Part shown: positions 9,388-60,231 of the stretch, piece after piece
Layout: each line of letters begins with the position of its first letter
Position numbering within the stretch: position 1 is the stretch's first letter
Source of the DNA: Synechococcus sp. CBW1004
Lineage (GTDB): Bacteria > Cyanobacteriota > Cyanobacteriia > PCC-6307 > Cyanobiaceae
Assembly (NCBI RefSeq): GCF_015840715.1
Contig: NZ_CP060397.1
Location: 1,054,001-1,118,000 of the forward strand
Length of the DNA: 64,000 nucleotides
Reading direction: 5' to 3'
Made by a program: the position numbers and the translations under genes
The notes under the pieces: model-generated
The model's input: the letters and a program-made list of their open reading frames with translations, nothing else
What the model was told of the DNA's origin: nothing
Database searches by the model: none

Positions 9388-9975
9388 ATGAAGGAATCAC
9401 CTCGCCCGGCGCAACAGGACAGCCCTGGCGGCCTCGACGGCATCGTGCTGGTGGGTCTGGGGGTCGGCGCGGAGTCCGGCCCCGGCAGCCTGCCGCCCCT
9501 GGCCGCCGTGTCCCGTCGGCTGGCGGAGACGCTGCGTCGGCCGGTGCTGGAGCTGGACACCACGGCCGGCCCCGATGCCGCCCTGAGCGGCCTAGGCCAT
9601 CAGGCCGAGGCCTGCGGTGGCGGCTGGCTGGCCGGCCTGGAAAGCGATGTGGGACTGTCCCTGGCGGACGGCCGCTGCTGGGCCGAGGCCCTGGGAGCCT
9701 GGCGGCAACCGGTGGTGCTGGTGATTGCATCGCACCAGCTGTACAGCGGTGTGCCGGCGGCGGCCACCGCCTTGCTGCGTCAGTGGCAGGTCCCCCTGCT
9801 GGGGCTGCTGCAGTGGGGCGGCGTCTGGCAGGCCGGAGAACGGCAGCGGGAGGGACTGCCCTGGCTGGGCCTGCTGGAGCCCGAAGACAGGAGCGATGCC
9901 GCGCCGGCGGACGACAGCGGACCGGCCCTGGCCACGGCGGTGGCCCTGCGCTGGAGCCAGCTGGAGCGTCCCTGA
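9388..9975 (+). CDS. Unrecognised conserved-looking protein
   Basis: The 195-residue product is not recognised. It is soluble, with alternating short hydrophobic strands (GIVLVGLGVGAESGPGS, PVVLVIASHQLYSGVPAA, VPLLGLLQWGGVW) that suggest a Rossmann-like alpha/beta fold, but no P-loop or GxGxxG motif is intact. Codon use matches its neighbours and the start ATG at 9388 follows the divergent prsA start by 67 bases. It ends about 110 bases before the convergent LCP-protein gene. Position beside prsA may point to a metabolic role, but no function is claimed. Confidence 0.65.
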   Translation: MKESPRPAQQDSPGGLDGIVLVGLGVGAESGPGSLPPLAAVSRRLAETLRRPVLELDTTAGPDAALSGLGHQAEACGGGWLAGLESDVGLSLADGRCWAEALGAWRQPVVLVIASHQLYSGVPAAATALLRQWQVPLLGLLQWGGVWQAGERQREGLPWLGLLEPEDRSDAAPADDSGPALATAVALRWSQLERP

Positions 9976-10083
9976 ACCCTGCAGAAGCCGACCCCAGAGG
10001 CGAGCGAAGCGCGCAACCGCGCGGGAGCTTTGATCACGCCGTCCTGATCGCGTCTGGGATGGCGCCACCGGCGCCGGCCGGTC

Positions 10084-11115
10084 TCAGCCCTTCTTCTCCG
10101 GCCAGACGGGATTGGGGGCCTTGCTGCTGAGCTGGCGCAGCTTGCCGTGGGCGGGCTTGGGTGGATCGAGGGGGAGGCTGGCGAAGGCGATCGGACGCTG
10201 ATCATCCAGACCGGCCGCCATCAGGCTCAGGGCCTCCAGCGGCGTGAGGTTGGTTTCCACCTGGCCCTCCAGCTCCTTCAGCACCCCCGGCAACGCCGTC
10301 AGCGGCTCGTTCTGACGCAACCGATCACGCAGGGCGATCTGGAAGCGCTGCTGGTTGTTGCGGCGATCGGTCTCTCCCAGCAAGCGATCGCGGTACCGCA
10401 CCAGTTGCTCCACCTGGGCCCCGCCGAGACGCTGCAGGCCTCCCTGCAGATCGATCGTCAGCTTCTGGGCCTTGTCCTGGTAACGCATGGTGCGCGGTGG
10501 ATCGATCTCCAGACCACCGATGCCGTTGACGAGCTGCCGGAGGGCCGCACGGGGAAGCACCACATAACGGTCGGGGCTCGGAGGCTGCAGGCCGGTGAGT
10601 TCACGCACCGCATCGGCCGTGAGCGCGACGCCGCCGCGGCGGTAGAGACTGCCGAGGGCAACGGGCTGCTTCTGTCCCGGCAGGCGCACGGCCAGTTCGG
10701 TGGGCAGGTTGAGCACCTGCAGGGGGCCCTCAGGCTGGACCCGCACGAGCAGCAGGGCATCGGCGTTGGCGGGACCGGCCGGGGCCGCCTTGTTGGTGGC
10801 ATCGCCGAGCTTGTCGGCATCAAGGCCGATGACCAGCACGGTGACAGGGCGGCGCGGTTTGTCGGCCAGCGTGGCGGGGGTGACCTCCGGCCTGGCCTGG
10901 AAGGCCTTGTCGTCTTCCGGCCAGATCAGCGAGAGGACTGCGATGGCTCCCACCGCACCGGCGGCGATGAGCGCCCCCACCTGCCACTGACGGCGGCTGG
11001 GGAGTCGCAGGCAGCGGCGGCCCAGGGCACCGATCCGGTCACGCCAGGTGGTGCGGGACGGCTGCCGCGGGCGGGAGGAGTCGGCGGGGGATCGGGGTTC
11101 CCGGCGGCGAGGCAT
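10084..11115 (-). CDS. LCP (LytR-CpsA-Psr) family protein
   Basis: This 343-residue type II membrane protein has a basic N terminus, one transmembrane helix (VGALIAAGAVGAIAVLSLIW) and an extracytoplasmic LCP domain. Family blocks include VTVLVIGLDADKLGD, DALLLVRVQPEG, LNLPTELAVRLPG, LYRRGGVALTADAVRELTGL and the basic lipid-binding segment QLVRYRDRLLGETDRRNNQQ. LCP enzymes attach glycopolymers from undecaprenyl-phosphate carriers to the cell wall. ATG at 11115 is preferred over an upstream frame extension because it places the basic segment and helix normally. It is divergent from the bciB-malQ pair. Confidence 0.88.
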   Translation of the reverse strand: MPRRREPRSPADSSRPRQPSRTTWRDRIGALGRRCLRLPSRRQWQVGALIAAGAVGAIAVLSLIWPEDDKAFQARPEVTPATLADKPRRPVTVLVIGLDADKLGDATNKAAPAGPANADALLLVRVQPEGPLQVLNLPTELAVRLPGQKQPVALGSLYRRGGVALTADAVRELTGLQPPSPDRYVVLPRAALRQLVNGIGGLEIDPPRTMRYQDKAQKLTIDLQGGLQRLGGAQVEQLVRYRDRLLGETDRRNNQQRFQIALRDRLRQNEPLTALPGVLKELEGQVETNLTPLEALSLMAAGLDDQRPIAFASLPLDPPKPAHGKLRQLSSKAPNPVWPEKKG

Positions 11116-53668: not shown

Positions 53669-54045
53669 CCAGATCTCCAGGAACAGACATGCAAGCAGGA
53701 ATGAAAAGGATGTGGACCAAAACAGCACACCTGCGCATGTTGTCGCGACAACCAGAAACGAATTCCGTCTGTTCTCTCAGGCTGTCCCCGCTGCCTGGCC
53801 CTCTCCGTACGCCATGAGAGCACTGTCATTGCAGCGGCTTCATCTTGACTGGAGCATGATCAGGGCGACTGATCGCGGTCATGAGCGATGGTGCCAAAGA
53901 GGCGACCCAGCTCATGAGAGAGGGTCCCCTATGGTTGGCGCACGTCACCTCAGCAGACTCCGTGATGAGATCTCGCAATCCCTAGCCACTGGGCCGGACG
54001 TCCGGTCAGGAACACGGACAGTGGCCAGACCACAGCATTGGGGCG

Positions 54046-54100
54046 ATTGACGCCGTTGTCTTCAGCCGCCGATGAGATGTTGACAGACAACGGAGTCAAT
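54046..54100. promoter_or_regulatory. 15-base inverted repeat upstream of the second Crp/Fnr-type regulator
   Basis: Arms ATTGACGCCGTTGTC (54046-54060) and GACAACGGAGTCAAT (54086-54100) pair with one mismatch across a 25-base loop. They lie 42 bases before the most likely start codon of the regulator, so the structure would be in its leader or operator. Autoregulation or RNA-level control is possible. Confidence 0.55.
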
Positions 54101-54142
54101 GTGATGTGGCCTCACCGTCATCCATTCACGGCCTTTCCTGCC

Positions 54143-54733
54143 ATGCATTCCGCCATGACAGCCAGAGATCTCCATCTGAGCCTGCAGGCCGGCGCGGCAG
54201 TGCCCTGCAATCTCAACTGGCGGATCGAAGACGGCTACCTGAGGGTCTGCAGCTGGAGCGAGCATGGGGAGGCCTGCACCTTCGGGCTATGGGGGCCGGG
54301 TGATCTGGTGATCCCCTCGTTGATTGCCGTGGCACCGTTGCAGCTCCTGGCCCTCTCCTCGGCGCGGGTGGAGGAGGCCGAACCCGAGCCTGAGGAGCGG
54401 GAAGCCTTCCTGCTCGCTCAGAGCGTGCAGACCGCCACCCTTCTGCAGTTGAGCCGCACCAGACCGGCGGAGTCACGCCTGTTTCAACTGTTGCTGTGGA
54501 TCGGTGAGCGCTTCGGACGCGTCAACAGCCGTGGCGTGAGCCTGTCGTTCGACGACATGAATCTCACCCATCGTCACCTGGCGGAGATTTCGGGGCTGAC
54601 CCGCGTCACCGTGACCAAGGCGATTTCGCATTTCCGCCAGCAGGGTTATCTCCGCAAGGAGGGGCCGGATGAACTGCTCCTGCGCGAGGCTCTGCCGCAG
54701 TTGCAGCGGCCGAGCAGAGGAGCACAGACGTGA
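54143..54733 (+). CDS. Second short Crp/Fnr-type transcriptional regulator
   Basis: The 196-residue protein is a paralogue of the regulator at 49449: LGLWGPGDLVIPSLIAVAPL-like and MNLTHRHLAEISGLTRVTVT segments match closely, and the winged-helix continues KAISHFRQQGYLRKEG. As in the paralogue, the first part of the beta-roll and the cAMP-contact residues are missing. The start is placed at ATG 54143 by alignment to the paralogue; an earlier frame start at 54038 would run through the inverted repeat. It precedes the histidine-decarboxylase-family operon and is its most likely regulator. Confidence 0.87.
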   Translation: MHSAMTARDLHLSLQAGAAVPCNLNWRIEDGYLRVCSWSEHGEACTFGLWGPGDLVIPSLIAVAPLQLLALSSARVEEAEPEPEEREAFLLAQSVQTATLLQLSRTRPAESRLFQLLLWIGERFGRVNSRGVSLSFDDMNLTHRHLAEISGLTRVTVTKAISHFRQQGYLRKEGPDELLLREALPQLQRPSRGAQT

Positions 54734-55144
54734 TGCGCTTCCATCACCCAGCAACGGGGGCCAGCGCATCGAGCAGCTGGGCAAGGTTTTCATCACACGC
54801 ACCGGGCCTACCCGTTGCTGATGAACATCAGCTTCGAGGTCCAACAGGACGGGGCCGTCTGCATGATCTGCCACTCCCCGGGTGAACGGCGGGCCGCCTC
54901 AACACACAAAGCAGAACCTGGAGCGCTCGCCTCTCCATGGACCCTCAGCAGCGTCGACTCCGCGGCGACACCACCCCGAGCGCACGCAGAGCCTACAGTC
55001 GGCGGTGGAACCAAACCCCGCACGGGGTGCCATCGGTCGCGCGTTCCCCACACAGTCGGCAGAATGCTGCTGAGTCAGCACCACCGCGTCGCCAGGTTGC
55101 TGCATACTCCTGAGGCCCTCCGCGATCGGTCCTGGGAATCACGC
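54734..55144. promoter_or_regulatory. Control region of the decarboxylase operon
   Basis: About 410 bases between the regulator stop and the decarboxylase start. The open frame that extends through it on the plus strand has no family pattern. It holds the palindrome at 54817-54832 described separately. No other terminator or promoter pair was convincing. Confidence 0.45.
54817..54832. promoter_or_regulatory. Fnr-box-like palindrome upstream of the decarboxylase operon
   Basis: GCTGATGAACATCAGC is a palindrome with two unpaired central bases. Its core TGAT-N4-ATCA matches the spacing of Fnr-type operators (TTGAT-N4-ATCAA). It lies between the second Crp/Fnr-type regulator gene and the decarboxylase gene, a natural place for a binding site of that regulator. 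Confidence 0.5.
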
Positions 55145-56359
55145 ATGAGCTACGACCCCTGGACCCGGCATGAGCAGCGATTCCCCGGGGACGCTGCGGC
55201 GGCAAGGCTGGAGGGACTGCGCTCCCATTTCGTGGAACGCTCGGCCCACTACATCGGCTTTCCCAACAGTCGGCTGATCTCCTTCGCAGAACTGGGCGAG
55301 TTCCTGCGATTCAACATTAATAACATCGGCGACCCCTTCCATCCCAATGACGGCATCAACACCTGTCATTTCGAACGTGAGGTTGTCAATTTCTGGTCCC
55401 AGCAGTTTCACCTCCACCCCGCTTCCGCCTGGGGCTACATCACCAACGGCAGCACCGAGGCGATCATGTATGGCATCGTCCAGGGCCGTGATCGACTCGA
55501 GAACCCTGTCCTCCTGTTCTCCGAGGAATCGCACTACTGTCTGCACAAAATCGCCCATCTGCTGCGGCTTCCCTATCGGGTCGTCGCCAGTCATGGCGAT
55601 GGCAGCCTCGACCTGGCGTCCCTGGACGACGCCATCAGGCATCTGGATGGACGGCCCTTCATTCTCAACCTGACCCTGGGCACCACCTTTCATGGCGCCA
55701 TCGAACCACCGCAGCAGGTTCTGGAGCTGCTCGAGAGCCGGCGCTGCCGAAGCTTCCACGTGCACGTCGACGCCGCCCTGTACGGACCGTTGCTGACCTG
55801 GATCGATGGGGCGCCGCTGTTCGACTTCCGCCTGCCGATCCATACGCTCTCGTTTTCAGGCCACAAGTTTCTCGGCGCACCGATTCCGTGCGGTGTGGTG
55901 CTCAGCCACAGCGACCCCGTGCGCCCCTTCGACGGCAGTGCCGAATACGTCGGGTCGCTCGACACCACCCTCGCCGGCTCTCGGGATGGCCTCTCCGCCC
56001 TGGTGCTCTGGCTGGTGATCCAGAGGGTCGGTGCGAAGGGGTTGGCCGCTCTGGCCGAGGAGTCACTGCAGCTGGCGGTCGACTTCGCCACCAGAATGGA
56101 GCGGGCCGGCATCGGCGTCACCTGCCATGACCATGGCTGCATCCTGGTCTTCAGGCGGCCGGATGAGGCGCTGGCCCGCCGCTGGCAGCTGGCCACCAGG
56201 GGGGACTTCGCCCATCTGGTCACCGTCCCCGGCGTCACCTCTGAGATGCTGGAGTCGTTTCTGCAGGAATGGATCGAAGCGATGGCCCAGGGCGTCCCGG
56301 ACCTTCGCCCATCCTCACCAGGAACGGCCGAAACCACCGCCGCCGGGGGGATGCGATGA
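55145..56359 (+). CDS. PLP-dependent histidine decarboxylase family protein
   Basis: The 404-residue group II decarboxylase resembles bacterial PLP-type histidine decarboxylases along its length: LGEFLRFNINNIGDPF, CHFEREVVNFWSQQF, SAWGYITNGSTEAIMYGIVQ, FSEESHYCLHKIAHLLRLPY, FHVHVDAALYGPLL with the PLP-contact Asp, and SFSGHKFLGAPIPCGVVLSH with the Schiff-base Lys. It probably makes histamine. Plant-type serine decarboxylases share this fold, so ethanolamine is an alternative product. ATG 55145 gives the family N terminus. Its stop overlaps the sensor gene. Confidence 0.9.
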   Translation: MSYDPWTRHEQRFPGDAAAARLEGLRSHFVERSAHYIGFPNSRLISFAELGEFLRFNINNIGDPFHPNDGINTCHFEREVVNFWSQQFHLHPASAWGYITNGSTEAIMYGIVQGRDRLENPVLLFSEESHYCLHKIAHLLRLPYRVVASHGDGSLDLASLDDAIRHLDGRPFILNLTLGTTFHGAIEPPQQVLELLESRRCRSFHVHVDAALYGPLLTWIDGAPLFDFRLPIHTLSFSGHKFLGAPIPCGVVLSHSDPVRPFDGSAEYVGSLDTTLAGSRDGLSALVLWLVIQRVGAKGLAALAEESLQLAVDFATRMERAGIGVTCHDHGCILVFRRPDEALARRWQLATRGDFAHLVTVPGVTSEMLESFLQEWIEAMAQGVPDLRPSSPGTAETTAAGGMR

Positions 56360-57744
56360 CCGAGATTCAGCCACGCCGTGCTGCGTTGGCGAACCCCGCC
56401 GTGCAGGGGGTTCTATTCACCCTGGCCTGGCTGGCGGTCACCAATGTGACCATCTATTTCATCTACCTGCGTGCCGTCGAGGCGGTGAAGGAAGAGATCC
56501 GTGACGGCCTGCTGCGCAACGTCAGTGTCGCCGCCACCAGCATCGATGGCGACCGGCACAAGACGTTCACCTCCAAGGCATCAAGGCAGGACCCGGCCTA
56601 CCTCGCCTTCATTGCCCATATGGAGACGCTCCGCAAGGCCTCCACGGATGTGCGCTACCTCTACACCAACATCCTCAAGGACGGCAAGGTCTACTTCATC
56701 GCCAACGGCAGTCCCCAGAACGACAACGACAAGGACGGCAAGCCGGATGAAGCGCCTCAGCTGATGGATCCGTACCCCGACGCCGGCAAGGCGCTTCAGC
56801 AAGCTCTGCAAAGCCAGAAGCCCGCCGTCGACCAGGAGCCCTACACCGATATCTGGGGAACCTTCTACAGCGCCTATGCACCGTTCAAGGATTCGCAGGG
56901 GCGCTTCGTCGGCACCCTGGGCATGGATCTTGAACTGAAGACCCTGCAGCAACGCCTCAACCCGATCGGACTGGCCGCCCAGCGGGCGGCCTTCACCTCC
57001 GGCATCCTGGCGATCCTGTTCGGCACTGCGCTCTGGTTCTTTCGCAGCCGCAACGGCATTCTCGAATCGCTGCATCACATGGCCGAAAGCAGGCTCCATC
57101 GGGTGGAGCAGGAGCGCATGCAGGAGCGCAACGCGGCAGCTGCCCAGCTGGCGATGGTGGCGGCCAGACTCGAAGGGCAGACCGTGCCGGTGAGCACTGG
57201 GGAAGCCAAAGACCAGCCTGCCGGCGAATCCCCTGTTCCCTACGCCTCCGCCCTGAAGCGCTATGCCATGGCCAGACAGGGGATGCGCTCGGAGCATGCG
57301 GAGAACTTTGATCCCGCTGCGCTGCTGCGCAGCAGCCTGCCCACCGACACGCCGCTCCAGGTGGCGCGCGATGTGCCCTCCATGGTGTGGGGCGATCCGG
57401 AGGAACTGAAGGAGATCATCCATGCCCTCTGTTTCCACCCCTTCAGCAACACGGCCCTGGGATCCCTGCGTGAACTCGACCTGGATGCCGCCCGCGAGCA
57501 GCTGAACACGCTGGATCTGGTGATGTCACTGCGCTTCGCCGACAAGGACAGCACGCTCAACGGCAGCGCACTGATCCAGGACCGTTATCACCCCGAGCAT
57601 GTCTTCGATGAGGATTCCCTGCAGTTCGCCACCTGTTGCGAGCAGGTCCGGGCACTCGGCGGCAGCCTGGTGCACCGCCAGGAAAGCGAAGGAAGTGAGC
57701 TCGTGGTGCTCACCCTCCCCTTCGAGAAATTCCACGAGGAGTGA
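56356..57744 (+). CDS. Membrane sensor: periplasmic Cache-like domain with degenerate histidine-kinase ATPase domain
   Basis: The 462-residue protein has TM1 (17-38), a periplasmic Cache/PAS-like domain (40-208, with DVRYLYTNILKDGKVYFIA, the acidic NDNDKDGKPDEA and DIWGTFYSAYAPFKDSQGR), TM2 (211-229), a coiled region (235-275) and a C-terminal region (318-458) resembling a HATPase domain (VWGDPEELKEIIHALCFHPF; CEQVRALGGSLVH; SELVVLTLPFEKF). No phospho-acceptor His domain and no N or G boxes are seen, so it is probably a pseudo-kinase receptor. It overlaps the decarboxylase stop by four bases (ATGA) and is two bases from the MFS gene. Confidence 0.82.
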   Translation: MTEIQPRRAALANPAVQGVLFTLAWLAVTNVTIYFIYLRAVEAVKEEIRDGLLRNVSVAATSIDGDRHKTFTSKASRQDPAYLAFIAHMETLRKASTDVRYLYTNILKDGKVYFIANGSPQNDNDKDGKPDEAPQLMDPYPDAGKALQQALQSQKPAVDQEPYTDIWGTFYSAYAPFKDSQGRFVGTLGMDLELKTLQQRLNPIGLAAQRAAFTSGILAILFGTALWFFRSRNGILESLHHMAESRLHRVEQERMQERNAAAAQLAMVAARLEGQTVPVSTGEAKDQPAGESPVPYASALKRYAMARQGMRSEHAENFDPAALLRSSLPTDTPLQVARDVPSMVWGDPEELKEIIHALCFHPFSNTALGSLRELDLDAAREQLNTLDLVMSLRFADKDSTLNGSALIQDRYHPEHVFDEDSLQFATCCEQVRALGGSLVHRQESEGSELVVLTLPFEKFHEE

Positions 57745-57746
57745 CC

Positions 57747-58925
57747 ATGGCGCAAGCGAAACAGGCCAGCGGGGACAGGGGAGCCCTGATCGCGGTGGTG
57801 GCCCTGATCCTGGCCACCGCCGTGATCCAGGCGGCCGTGGGCTTCAACACGGTGTTGTTCCCGGTGCGGCTGGAGTCGTACGGCTTCAGCAAAGGTCTGA
57901 TCGGCCTCTGTCTGGCCTTCGAGATGGGGGCGGTGGTGTCGATCGTCTCCTCCATCGATCAGATCCTGGCCCGGCTCGGCCTCGTGGGCACGATGGCCCT
58001 CGCCACCGGAGTGCGGCTGGTGATGTTGCTGCTGCTCTCGGGCACCCGCAGTCTGCCGATCTGGTGTGTGGGGGTGTTCTGCTTCGGCATCGGCACCTAC
58101 CTCTGTCTGATCTCCCTGCAGACCTGGGTCAACGCCGTCCCTCTCGGCAGGCTGCGCGGCCTGGTCAGCGGGTGCTACAGCTCGGCCCTCTCGCTCGGCA
58201 CCGCCAGCGGCCCGATCCTGTTCAACCAGGTGGGATCGGCAGAGGGCAACCAGGCATTCCAGGCCAACATGCTGATCGTGCTGGTGGCGCTGCTGTTGAT
58301 CGTTCCCTTCCTCAATCAGGCCCCGCGCATCTGCGGTCAGGGACGCCTGCGGCTGGGCTATGTGATCCGGATGGCCAAGGTGCCGATGCTCTCGTCATTC
58401 GTGGGGGGCGTCACCTTTTTCGGGCTGCCGGCGTTTCTCACCCTGTACGGCATGATGAACGGCCTGACGGTGCAGCGCGCCTCACTGCTTCTCACAGCCT
58501 TCATGCTGGGCTCGGTCAGTCTGGGACTGTTGATCTCCAGCCTATCGGATCGCATCAACCGCACTCTGCTGACGATCCTGTGCGTGCTGGTCGGCGTGAT
58601 CTGTGCCGTGTATCTTCCTCTGGGCATCTACAACTACGGCATCGCCCTAAGCCTGCTGTTCGTCTGGGGCGGCGCCGCCGGCGGCATCTACGCCACGGGG
58701 CTGGCCACGGTGGCGGATCTGTTTCGGCAGGAGGACCAGGTATCGGCGAATGTGGCCTACTCGATTCTTGACAACATCGGCGGGATCTTCGGCGTGCTGC
58801 TGATCGGCCTGCTGATGGGAGCTGGCGTTTCGGATGGCATTGTGTATGTCATTGTACTCACCGCTGTGAGCTATTTCATCTACTGCCTTGCCCAGATCCT
58901 TTACAGCCCCGACCACGCCATCTGA
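57747..58925 (+). CDS. MFS transporter
   Basis: The 392-residue protein has about 12 membrane segments of the major facilitator type: LIAVVALILATAVIQAAVGF, LFPVRLESYGFSKGLIGLCL, MGAVVSIVSSIDQILARLGL and VNAVPLGRLRGLVSGCYSSA in the first half; SLGLLISSLSDRINRTLLTI and LLFVWGGAAGGIYATGLATV in the second. It resembles MFS proteins of the YcaD/sugar-efflux type. Its substrate is unknown, but its place directly after the decarboxylase and sensor suggests amine or amino-acid transport. ATG 57747 follows a GAGGAG ribosome-binding site; a GTG six bases earlier is also possible. Confidence 0.9.
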   Translation: MAQAKQASGDRGALIAVVALILATAVIQAAVGFNTVLFPVRLESYGFSKGLIGLCLAFEMGAVVSIVSSIDQILARLGLVGTMALATGVRLVMLLLLSGTRSLPIWCVGVFCFGIGTYLCLISLQTWVNAVPLGRLRGLVSGCYSSALSLGTASGPILFNQVGSAEGNQAFQANMLIVLVALLLIVPFLNQAPRICGQGRLRLGYVIRMAKVPMLSSFVGGVTFFGLPAFLTLYGMMNGLTVQRASLLLTAFMLGSVSLGLLISSLSDRINRTLLTILCVLVGVICAVYLPLGIYNYGIALSLLFVWGGAAGGIYATGLATVADLFRQEDQVSANVAYSILDNIGGIFGVLLIGLLMGAGVSDGIVYVIVLTAVSYFIYCLAQILYSPDHAI

Positions 58926-58986
58926 ACCGGCAGCCTTCACAACCTGACATCCCCCCACCGCTCACCCAACTGCCCGCGAATCTGTG

Positions 58987-60231
58987 ATGCCCCCTCGAGA
59001 GCCTCGGCGATCCAGGCACCCCACCATTCTTCAGAAGCCCTGGAATGTTTCGGCACTCCTGCTGGCAGCGCTGGCGATCATGATGATGTTGATTGCCGTG
59101 GTTTCGGTGGACAAGCCGCGCAGTCGAACCGGTGATTACCTGGAGCTGGCCCGTGGCAATGATCCAGGCATGCTCCAGCGCGAGCAGAATCTCCCCAGAC
59201 TGCTGAAGCGCGATCACGATGGCTACAAGATCCCCAGCGAAGGAAGCAGCGACACGCCACAGGGGGTGATGAAGCTGAGAATGGGCCTGTACGCGATGAA
59301 CAACTACAACATCAATCTACAGGTTCCCTCATTTGATAGCACGGGTTACTGGTGGATGAAATGGGACGACGACCTGCAGACATACATGACCGAAAACAAC
59401 CTCAAGATCTGGCGAGTGATGACGCCGATCAACCTGCTTGACATCCCCGAATCATCAGACTCTGTCTTTACACCTACCGGCAAGGACGAACCCATCCGCA
59501 TGAAGGATGGAACCTGGTACATGACAGGCGCCTACAGCGGCACCTTCTTCATTGACCGCGTTGACTACAGGCATCATCCGTTCACATCCCTGAGTCTGCC
59601 CATCATGATCGAGGCCGACGACATCGTCCTCAGCAACAACAGGCTTCAGATCATTCCGGATGTGAAGGGCAGCGGCATCGGCCAGTTCATCCATGCCCAC
59701 ACCGGCTGGGTGAACATGGGCTGGTCTCTGGCGACCTACAAACATCACTACGACACCGATTTCGGCTTCGGCGAAGGGGCCTCCGACTACAGCCAGCTCG
59801 TGTTTGCCGTCAAATACGCCAGCAGCGCCTGGTCAGCCTTCTGGAAGGTGCTGGTCCCCCTGCTGATCGTGGTGGCGATGATCGCGGGCGCCACCAAGCT
59901 CGACACGCAACACTATGACGTCCGCCTCACCCTGCCGGTCACAGTGCTGCTGACGCTGGTCTTCATGCAGCAGGCGCAGGATGCCGACCTGCCACGCATC
60001 CCCTATCTCACCTTTCTGGACGAGGTGTATGTCGTGGCCTACATCCTCACACTGGGCTCCTTCGTGCTGATGCTCTGGGCCTGCCGTCGCTACTACAGAG
60101 CTCTCCAGATTGAAGATCCGAAGGAGCGGGCGCTCGAAATGGAAAAGCTGGACCGATCCGACGATTACTGGCCAACCTATGTCATCCTTGCCGGCATCAT
60201 CTCCCTGACCTTCGCCTGGTTCACGGGCTGA
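58987..60231 (+). CDS. Pentameric ligand-gated ion channel homologue (ELIC-like)
   Basis: The 414-residue protein has an N-terminal hydrophobic helix (20-41), an extracellular region of about 240 residues and four membrane helices (286-304, 311-330, 344-366, 394-412). The extracellular part shows the pLGIC order: LRMGLYAMNNYNINLQVPSF, GYWWMKWDDDL, and the Pro-loop YRHHPF (194-199) in place of the Cys-loop. The TM1-TM3 block WKVLVPLLIVVAMIAGATKL, VRLTLPVTVLLTLVFMQQAQ and ADLPRIPYLTFLDEVYVVAY closely follows ELIC and GLIC (LPR-PY-T---D motif). It lies 61 bases after the MFS gene. No Cys-loop cysteines are present, as in bacterial members. Confidence 0.88.
   Translation: MPPREPRRSRHPTILQKPWNVSALLLAALAIMMMLIAVVSVDKPRSRTGDYLELARGNDPGMLQREQNLPRLLKRDHDGYKIPSEGSSDTPQGVMKLRMGLYAMNNYNINLQVPSFDSTGYWWMKWDDDLQTYMTENNLKIWRVMTPINLLDIPESSDSVFTPTGKDEPIRMKDGTWYMTGAYSGTFFIDRVDYRHHPFTSLSLPIMIEADDIVLSNNRLQIIPDVKGSGIGQFIHAHTGWVNMGWSLATYKHHYDTDFGFGEGASDYSQLVFAVKYASSAWSAFWKVLVPLLIVVAMIAGATKLDTQHYDVRLTLPVTVLLTLVFMQQAQDADLPRIPYLTFLDEVYVVAYILTLGSFVLMLWACRRYYRALQIEDPKERALEMEKLDRSDDYWPTYVILAGIISLTFAWFTG

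Follow-up and report, generated by a model that had tools for sequence, protein, structure and literature searches.

A putative four-gene operon of Synechococcus sp. CBW1004 encodes a pyridoxal phosphate (PLP) decarboxylase, a membrane sensor, a major facilitator superfamily (MFS) transporter and a pentameric ligand-gated ion channel (pLGIC). It lies within the window, that is, the whole stretch of 64,000 nucleotides analysed here (contig NZ_CP060397.1, positions 1,054,001 to 1,118,000). The four genes are located on the plus strand, and their order, coordinates and spacing agree with those given in the initial annotation of this DNA, which had been made from the sequence alone:

55145..56359, plus strand: PLP decarboxylase gene (Pyridoxal_deC, E 1.1e-21; PRK02769, 335.7 bits)
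56356..57744, plus strand: membrane Cache sensor with a degenerate histidine kinase domain (pseudo-kinase), 462 amino acids
57747..58925, plus strand: MFS transporter, 392 amino acids (MFS_1, 2.7e-18)
58987..60231, plus strand: pLGIC subunit of the ELIC/GLIC superfamily, 414 amino acids

The decarboxylase and sensor genes overlap by 4 bases, 2 bases separate the sensor gene from the MFS gene, and a 61-base spacer, in which a scan found no terminator-like or promoter-like site, precedes the channel gene. Co-transcription of the four genes is likely, as judged from the sequence. Upstream, the decarboxylase frame stays open as far as a TTG at 54815; nevertheless, 55145 is its likely start, because an ATG aligned with this position and followed by a shared YDPW-type start is found in five of the seven decarboxylase orthologues.

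The same gene order and strand are preserved in seven other complete cyanobacterial loci (L031, from Synechococcus sp. GreenBA-s; L032, from Vulcanococcus limneticus; L033, which shares a contig with L035; and L036, L037, L038 and L039), giving eight complete loci together with the window. A further locus, L034 of Synechococcus sp. Cruz CV12-2-Slac-r, is broken by a contig end and contains only the MFS and channel genes. Close orthologues of all four genes occur in an identical set of genomes (6 of the 42 from the genus) and in none of the remaining ones. The initial annotation had proposed co-occurrence in other genomes as a check on its idea of a common system, with absence counting against it, and such co-occurrence was found. 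The flanking genes vary, with at least five genomic contexts for the operon; the constancy of the four genes within changing surroundings indicates that the unit is kept, or moves, together. All four genes are under purifying selection, with ratios of nonsynonymous to synonymous substitution rates (dN/dS) of 0.05-0.26 in unsaturated pairs, the MFS and channel genes being the most constrained. The four genes thus almost certainly represent one co-inherited genetic unit, as first proposed. Its range is narrow: across 386 phylum-wide genomes, only decarboxylases of 33-35% identity, from one other family, were found outside the window's genome.

By sequence, the product of the fourth gene is a pLGIC, with homology extending across both the ligand-binding and the pore domains. 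It matches the NCBIfam family LGIC_1 (8.6e-10), and a profile search of solved structures places ELIC nearest (1.3e-13, residues 89-371), followed by GLIC (3.5e-8), which bears out the earlier naming of ELIC as the closest characterised channel, while a single-sequence search ranks the two roughly equal. Foldseek, used with a low-confidence model of the channel, matches sTeLIC, GLIC and ELIC at E values of about 1e-9. Confidence in the whole-protein models was low (mean pLDDT 58-60, from shallow alignments), and they were used for topology and for the fold of the sensor C-terminus only. The Pro-loop residues P198 and F199 are invariant in 17 of 17 members of the channel family. The following residues align with pocket positions of ELIC, whose roles are taken from the ELIC study (Zimmermann & Dutzler 2011, PMC3119659):

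59290..59292, plus strand: Tyr102 codon (position of ELIC Phe19)
59347..59349, plus strand: Tyr121 codon (position of ELIC Tyr38)
59611..59613, plus strand: Glu209 codon (position of ELIC Glu131)
59749..59751, plus strand: Tyr255 codon (position of ELIC Tyr175, loop C)
59788..59790, plus strand: Tyr268 codon (position of ELIC Phe188, loop C)

In each of the 17 members of the family, these five positions (F19, Y38, E131, Y175 and F188) hold an aromatic residue or Glu, although a hidden Markov model alignment sets a neighbouring Asp of the window channel, instead of Glu209, at ELIC E131. GLIC of Gloeobacter violaceus, also a cyanobacterial pLGIC, has Tyr, Phe, Ile, Phe and Glu at the same positions and thus differs in lacking equivalents of E131 and F188. 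An acidic residue at the pore -2' position, shared with GLIC, is present in most members of the family and suggests cation selectivity. The N-terminal region (58987-59142) encodes an invariant Trp-Asn, a hydrophobic helix (residues 21-41), and then an invariant D50 and L52. This arrangement is unlike a cleaved signal peptide, and the helix is possibly a fifth membrane helix.

Other pLGICs were also encountered. The window's genome contains a second, distant one (28-29% identity), far from the operon (L054, G000:C1:2256000-2275000, positions 9519-10466). Moreover, at 11 loci in several genera, genes of a second pLGIC subfamily (about 32-44% identity to the channel of the window) stand head-to-head with genes for LivK-type periplasmic binding proteins (Peripla_BP_6); at two of these loci, L036 and L039, no more than 1 kb separates the pair from the decarboxylase operon. 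A plasmid search returned no pLGIC related to query P0003, and one weak Legionella match to ELIC.

The decarboxylase is a group II PLP enzyme in which the PLP lysine is retained. Three of its positions are informative:

55865..55867, plus strand: Lys241 codon, the PLP lysine in the SGHKFLG motif (from alignment with solved decarboxylases)
55265..55267, plus strand: Asn41 codon (GFPN), at the serine/alanine specificity position of plant enzymes (position from PMC11407765)
55985..55987, plus strand: Asp281 codon (SRDG), Asn or Ser in all other sequences compared

The initial annotation had named this protein a histidine decarboxylase, a specificity that could not be established. The window enzyme does exceed the curated cut-off of 305 bits of the NCBIfam histidine decarboxylase model PRK02769; however, the proven plant serine decarboxylase 8jg7, taken as a control, reaches 465.5 bits on the same model, so the name cannot settle the substrate, and histidine specificity drawn from this non-discriminating model was dropped as evidence. 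Among solved structures, the best scores belong to 8jg7 and the tea alanine decarboxylase 8jik (about 252 bits), compared with 207 bits for the Photobacterium histidine decarboxylase 7erv. In the plant enzymes, Tyr at one position confers specificity for serine and Phe specificity for alanine (PMC11407765). All eight operon enzymes have Asn there and are devoid of the YPY/YPF motif, while the bacterial PLP histidine decarboxylases of K. aerogenes (hdc) and Photobacterium, members of the same superfamily with a common PLP lysine motif, have Glu (GYPE). Similarly, SRDG is present in eight of eight operon enzymes, as opposed to SRNG or SRSG elsewhere (GSRNG in the bacterial histidine decarboxylases, GSRDG in the operon).

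Once long-branch rows are left out of the tree, the enzymes encoded by the operon group in a separate, long-stemmed clade (100/100), outside the true histidine decarboxylase group (100/99) and apart from the plant and Nostocales group as well, although joining the operon and plant enzymes in a single clade is not clearly rejected (approximately unbiased test, p 0.057). An early tree that included long-branch rows had hinted at the serine side (82/90). This placement was abandoned, and neither the serine nor the histidine side is claimed, because the tree without these rows is an unrooted three-way split. The separate clade and the unusual active-site residues make it plausible that the decarboxylase uses a distinct substrate. 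A same-superfamily gene annotated as 'hdc' on a Fischerella plasmid (L064:3995-5140) lies between peptide synthetase and putative tryptophan halogenase genes, perhaps in a natural-product cluster.

The sensor is descended from active hybrid histidine kinases and is now a pseudo-kinase, in agreement with its first description. Its Cache-TM (transmembrane) part is 28-33% identical to that of active hybrid kinases from the same cyanobacterial family (L073-L077), which carry the motifs HELRTPLNG, NLVGNA, DTGPGI and GGTGLGL and a receiver domain. The operon sensor is recognised as a pseudo-kinase because, in alignment with L073 and L075, its phospho-His (H), N, G1 and G2 boxes are gone, as is the receiver. 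Its C-terminus is nevertheless homologous to the active kinase domain (hhalign 84.5%, E 7e-6), and the modelled C-terminus, with pLDDT mostly 70-86, has a GHKL layout and Foldseek matches to GacS, ZraS, RetS and DivL. The periplasmic part comprises just about 170 amino acids, and its dCache_1 match is weak (24.3 bits, below the cut-off of 45). An EF-hand-like acidic loop, DNDKDGKPDE (56722..56751, plus strand), gained relative to the active kinases, is found in the Cache domain of all eight operon sensors, in one case with D changed to N. No spacing matching the amine motif of PctD (W155, F188, D235 and others; PMC10104139) was seen by eye, and no reliable structural alignment was obtained. 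In half of the eight operon sensors (L036:9300-11159, L037:8302-10161, L038:5169-7010 and L039:4701-6563), an extra domain of about 150 amino acids is inserted within the degenerate kinase; it resembles a Calx-beta type by eye and has no significant Pfam match.

The MFS protein is 69-90% identical to its counterparts in the seven other loci and shows a weak match to TIGR00895, a family of uptake symporters. No PDB relatives were found by sequence, and for this reason its substrate is not inferred.

Parts of this arrangement have precedents, although the initial annotation, made without searches, knew of no described system of this composition. According to the ELIC study (PMC3119659), the ELIC gene of Dickeya dadantii (Erwinia chrysanthemi) shares its operon with the gene of a putative amino acid decarboxylase, annotated as glutamate decarboxylase, which the authors suggested may process the ELIC ligand. 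ELIC is opened there by small primary amines, and not by glycine or beta-alanine. The two operons thus share a pLGIC, an annotated decarboxylase and several pocket residues, but they belong to different phyla and differ in decarboxylase annotation; the ELIC operon is known here from that paper alone, the available part of which makes no mention of a Cache pseudo-kinase or an MFS protein. Tasneem et al. (2004/5, PMC549065) described a pLGIC-Cache operon, as well as pLGICs that are fused with periplasmic binding proteins or encoded next to them, so that a pLGIC next to an independent small-molecule sensor is likewise shared; the Rhodopseudomonas case, however, involves a stand-alone Cache gene, and the word decarboxylase does not occur in that paper. 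In genome G102, which looks like that of the GLIC host, a decarboxylase homologue is about 2 Mb away from the pLGIC. No paper describing the four-gene unit was found in the open-access literature. The operon is best read as uniting the decarboxylase-pLGIC and pLGIC-Cache themes and adding an MFS protein and a pseudo-kinase, which makes it a second, richer decarboxylase-pLGIC operon.

In the proposed mechanism, the decarboxylase would convert an amino acid to a small primary amine, as the chemistry of its family implies, and inner-membrane transport of this amine or of its precursor would fall to the MFS protein. The periplasm-facing, cation-type pLGIC would be opened by binding of the amine, or of a closely related compound, to the pocket at the subunit interface; amine gating is proposed because of the ELIC-like pocket residues and because an operon of ELIC with a decarboxylase has been reported independently. 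The Cache pseudo-kinase would read a periplasmic cue and act without phosphotransfer, through binding a presumed partner. With middling confidence, the four genes are considered one functional unit, in which a small amine connected with the enzyme is probably what the channel senses; channel ligand, transport direction and physiology are all inferred. Three findings weigh against this view: ELIC residues F133, E77, R91 and N103 are replaced by D211, N149, E168 and T180; the kept pocket residues also occur in paralogous pLGICs that have no decarboxylase beside them, and hence point to a family-wide pocket for amines or cation-pi contacts, not one specific to the operon; and L040 has the channel (53-54% identity) while its three companion genes are missing. 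The original reading of an amine made, exported and detected consequently stands as regards the unit, the ELIC-like channel and the pseudo-kinase, while a histidine substrate, export by the MFS protein and an amine ligand of the Cache domain were not established, and the roles first suggested for it, signalling between cells or an acid/Ci response, are hypothetical. Its fullest form, a transmitter-like system in which a cell makes and exports the amine, the cell or its neighbours receive it via the self-encoded cation channel, and the dead kinase acts as a second receptor, is tentative and on present evidence doubtful.

Known acid-resistance systems combine a decarboxylase with a transporter, and acid or pH homeostasis is the main rival explanation. 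Decarboxylation would consume a proton, the MFS protein would exchange the amine against the amino acid, and gating would be by protons, as in GLIC, which is likewise cyanobacterial and is named as proton-gated in its PDB entries; an AdiC-type antiporter gene also precedes hdc in K. aerogenes. Those systems, however, use an APC-type antiporter where the operon has an MFS_1 protein, a ligand sensor would be superfluous, and the channel profile is closer to ELIC than to GLIC, with pocket residues that are missing from GLIC. This explanation is considered unlikely, though a serious candidate. The weak TIGR00895 match, and an MFS protein that may work in either direction, would instead suit scavenging or signal removal: an amino acid or amine outside the cell would be perceived by the channel and Cache sensor, and the substrate taken up through the MFS protein would be consumed by the decarboxylase; the pairing of related pLGICs with LivK-type proteins, which handle external solutes, fits as well. 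Yet the amine product must still leave or be used, the unit contains no amine-using gene, and ELIC is insensitive to the two amino acids mentioned above; scavenging is considered distinctly unlikely.

The operon could also be a biosynthetic unit that supplies the amine as a building block or as a metabolite for secretion; the roles of the channel and pseudo-kinase, in the membrane or in regulation, would then be unrelated to the amine. The Fischerella neighbourhood described above gives this some substance, but the compared loci share no conserved biosynthetic genes next to the operon, and the channel accompanies the decarboxylase through changing contexts; such a role is improbable. Detection of an enzyme-linked amine remains the preferred reading, and its significance lies in the status of bacterial pLGICs as model proteins for nerve receptors. 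The ELIC authors described the natural ligand and the purpose of these channels as unknown and pointed to the neighbouring decarboxylase (PMC3119659). A further decarboxylase-pLGIC operon, in another phylum and conserved at eight loci, makes a pattern of what was a passing comment and hints at what such channels detect, and the idea that the enzyme's product acts on the channel is directly testable.

Directly upstream of the operon, on the same strand, lies another gene:

54038-54733, plus strand: Crp-like regulator gene

It was considered as an operon member and rejected, since no relative adjoins the other operon copies. A search for an NtcA-like site gave a sole occurrence, within the MFS gene. 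The head-to-head pairs of pLGIC and Peripla_BP_6 genes are located as follows:

L036:4901-7289, L039:3-2013, L041:8860-11266, L042:10983-13456: pLGIC/Peripla_BP_6 pairs
L043:8296-10669, L044:8653-11164, L046:7746-10124, and also in L047, L048, L049 and L051: pLGIC/Peripla_BP_6 pairs

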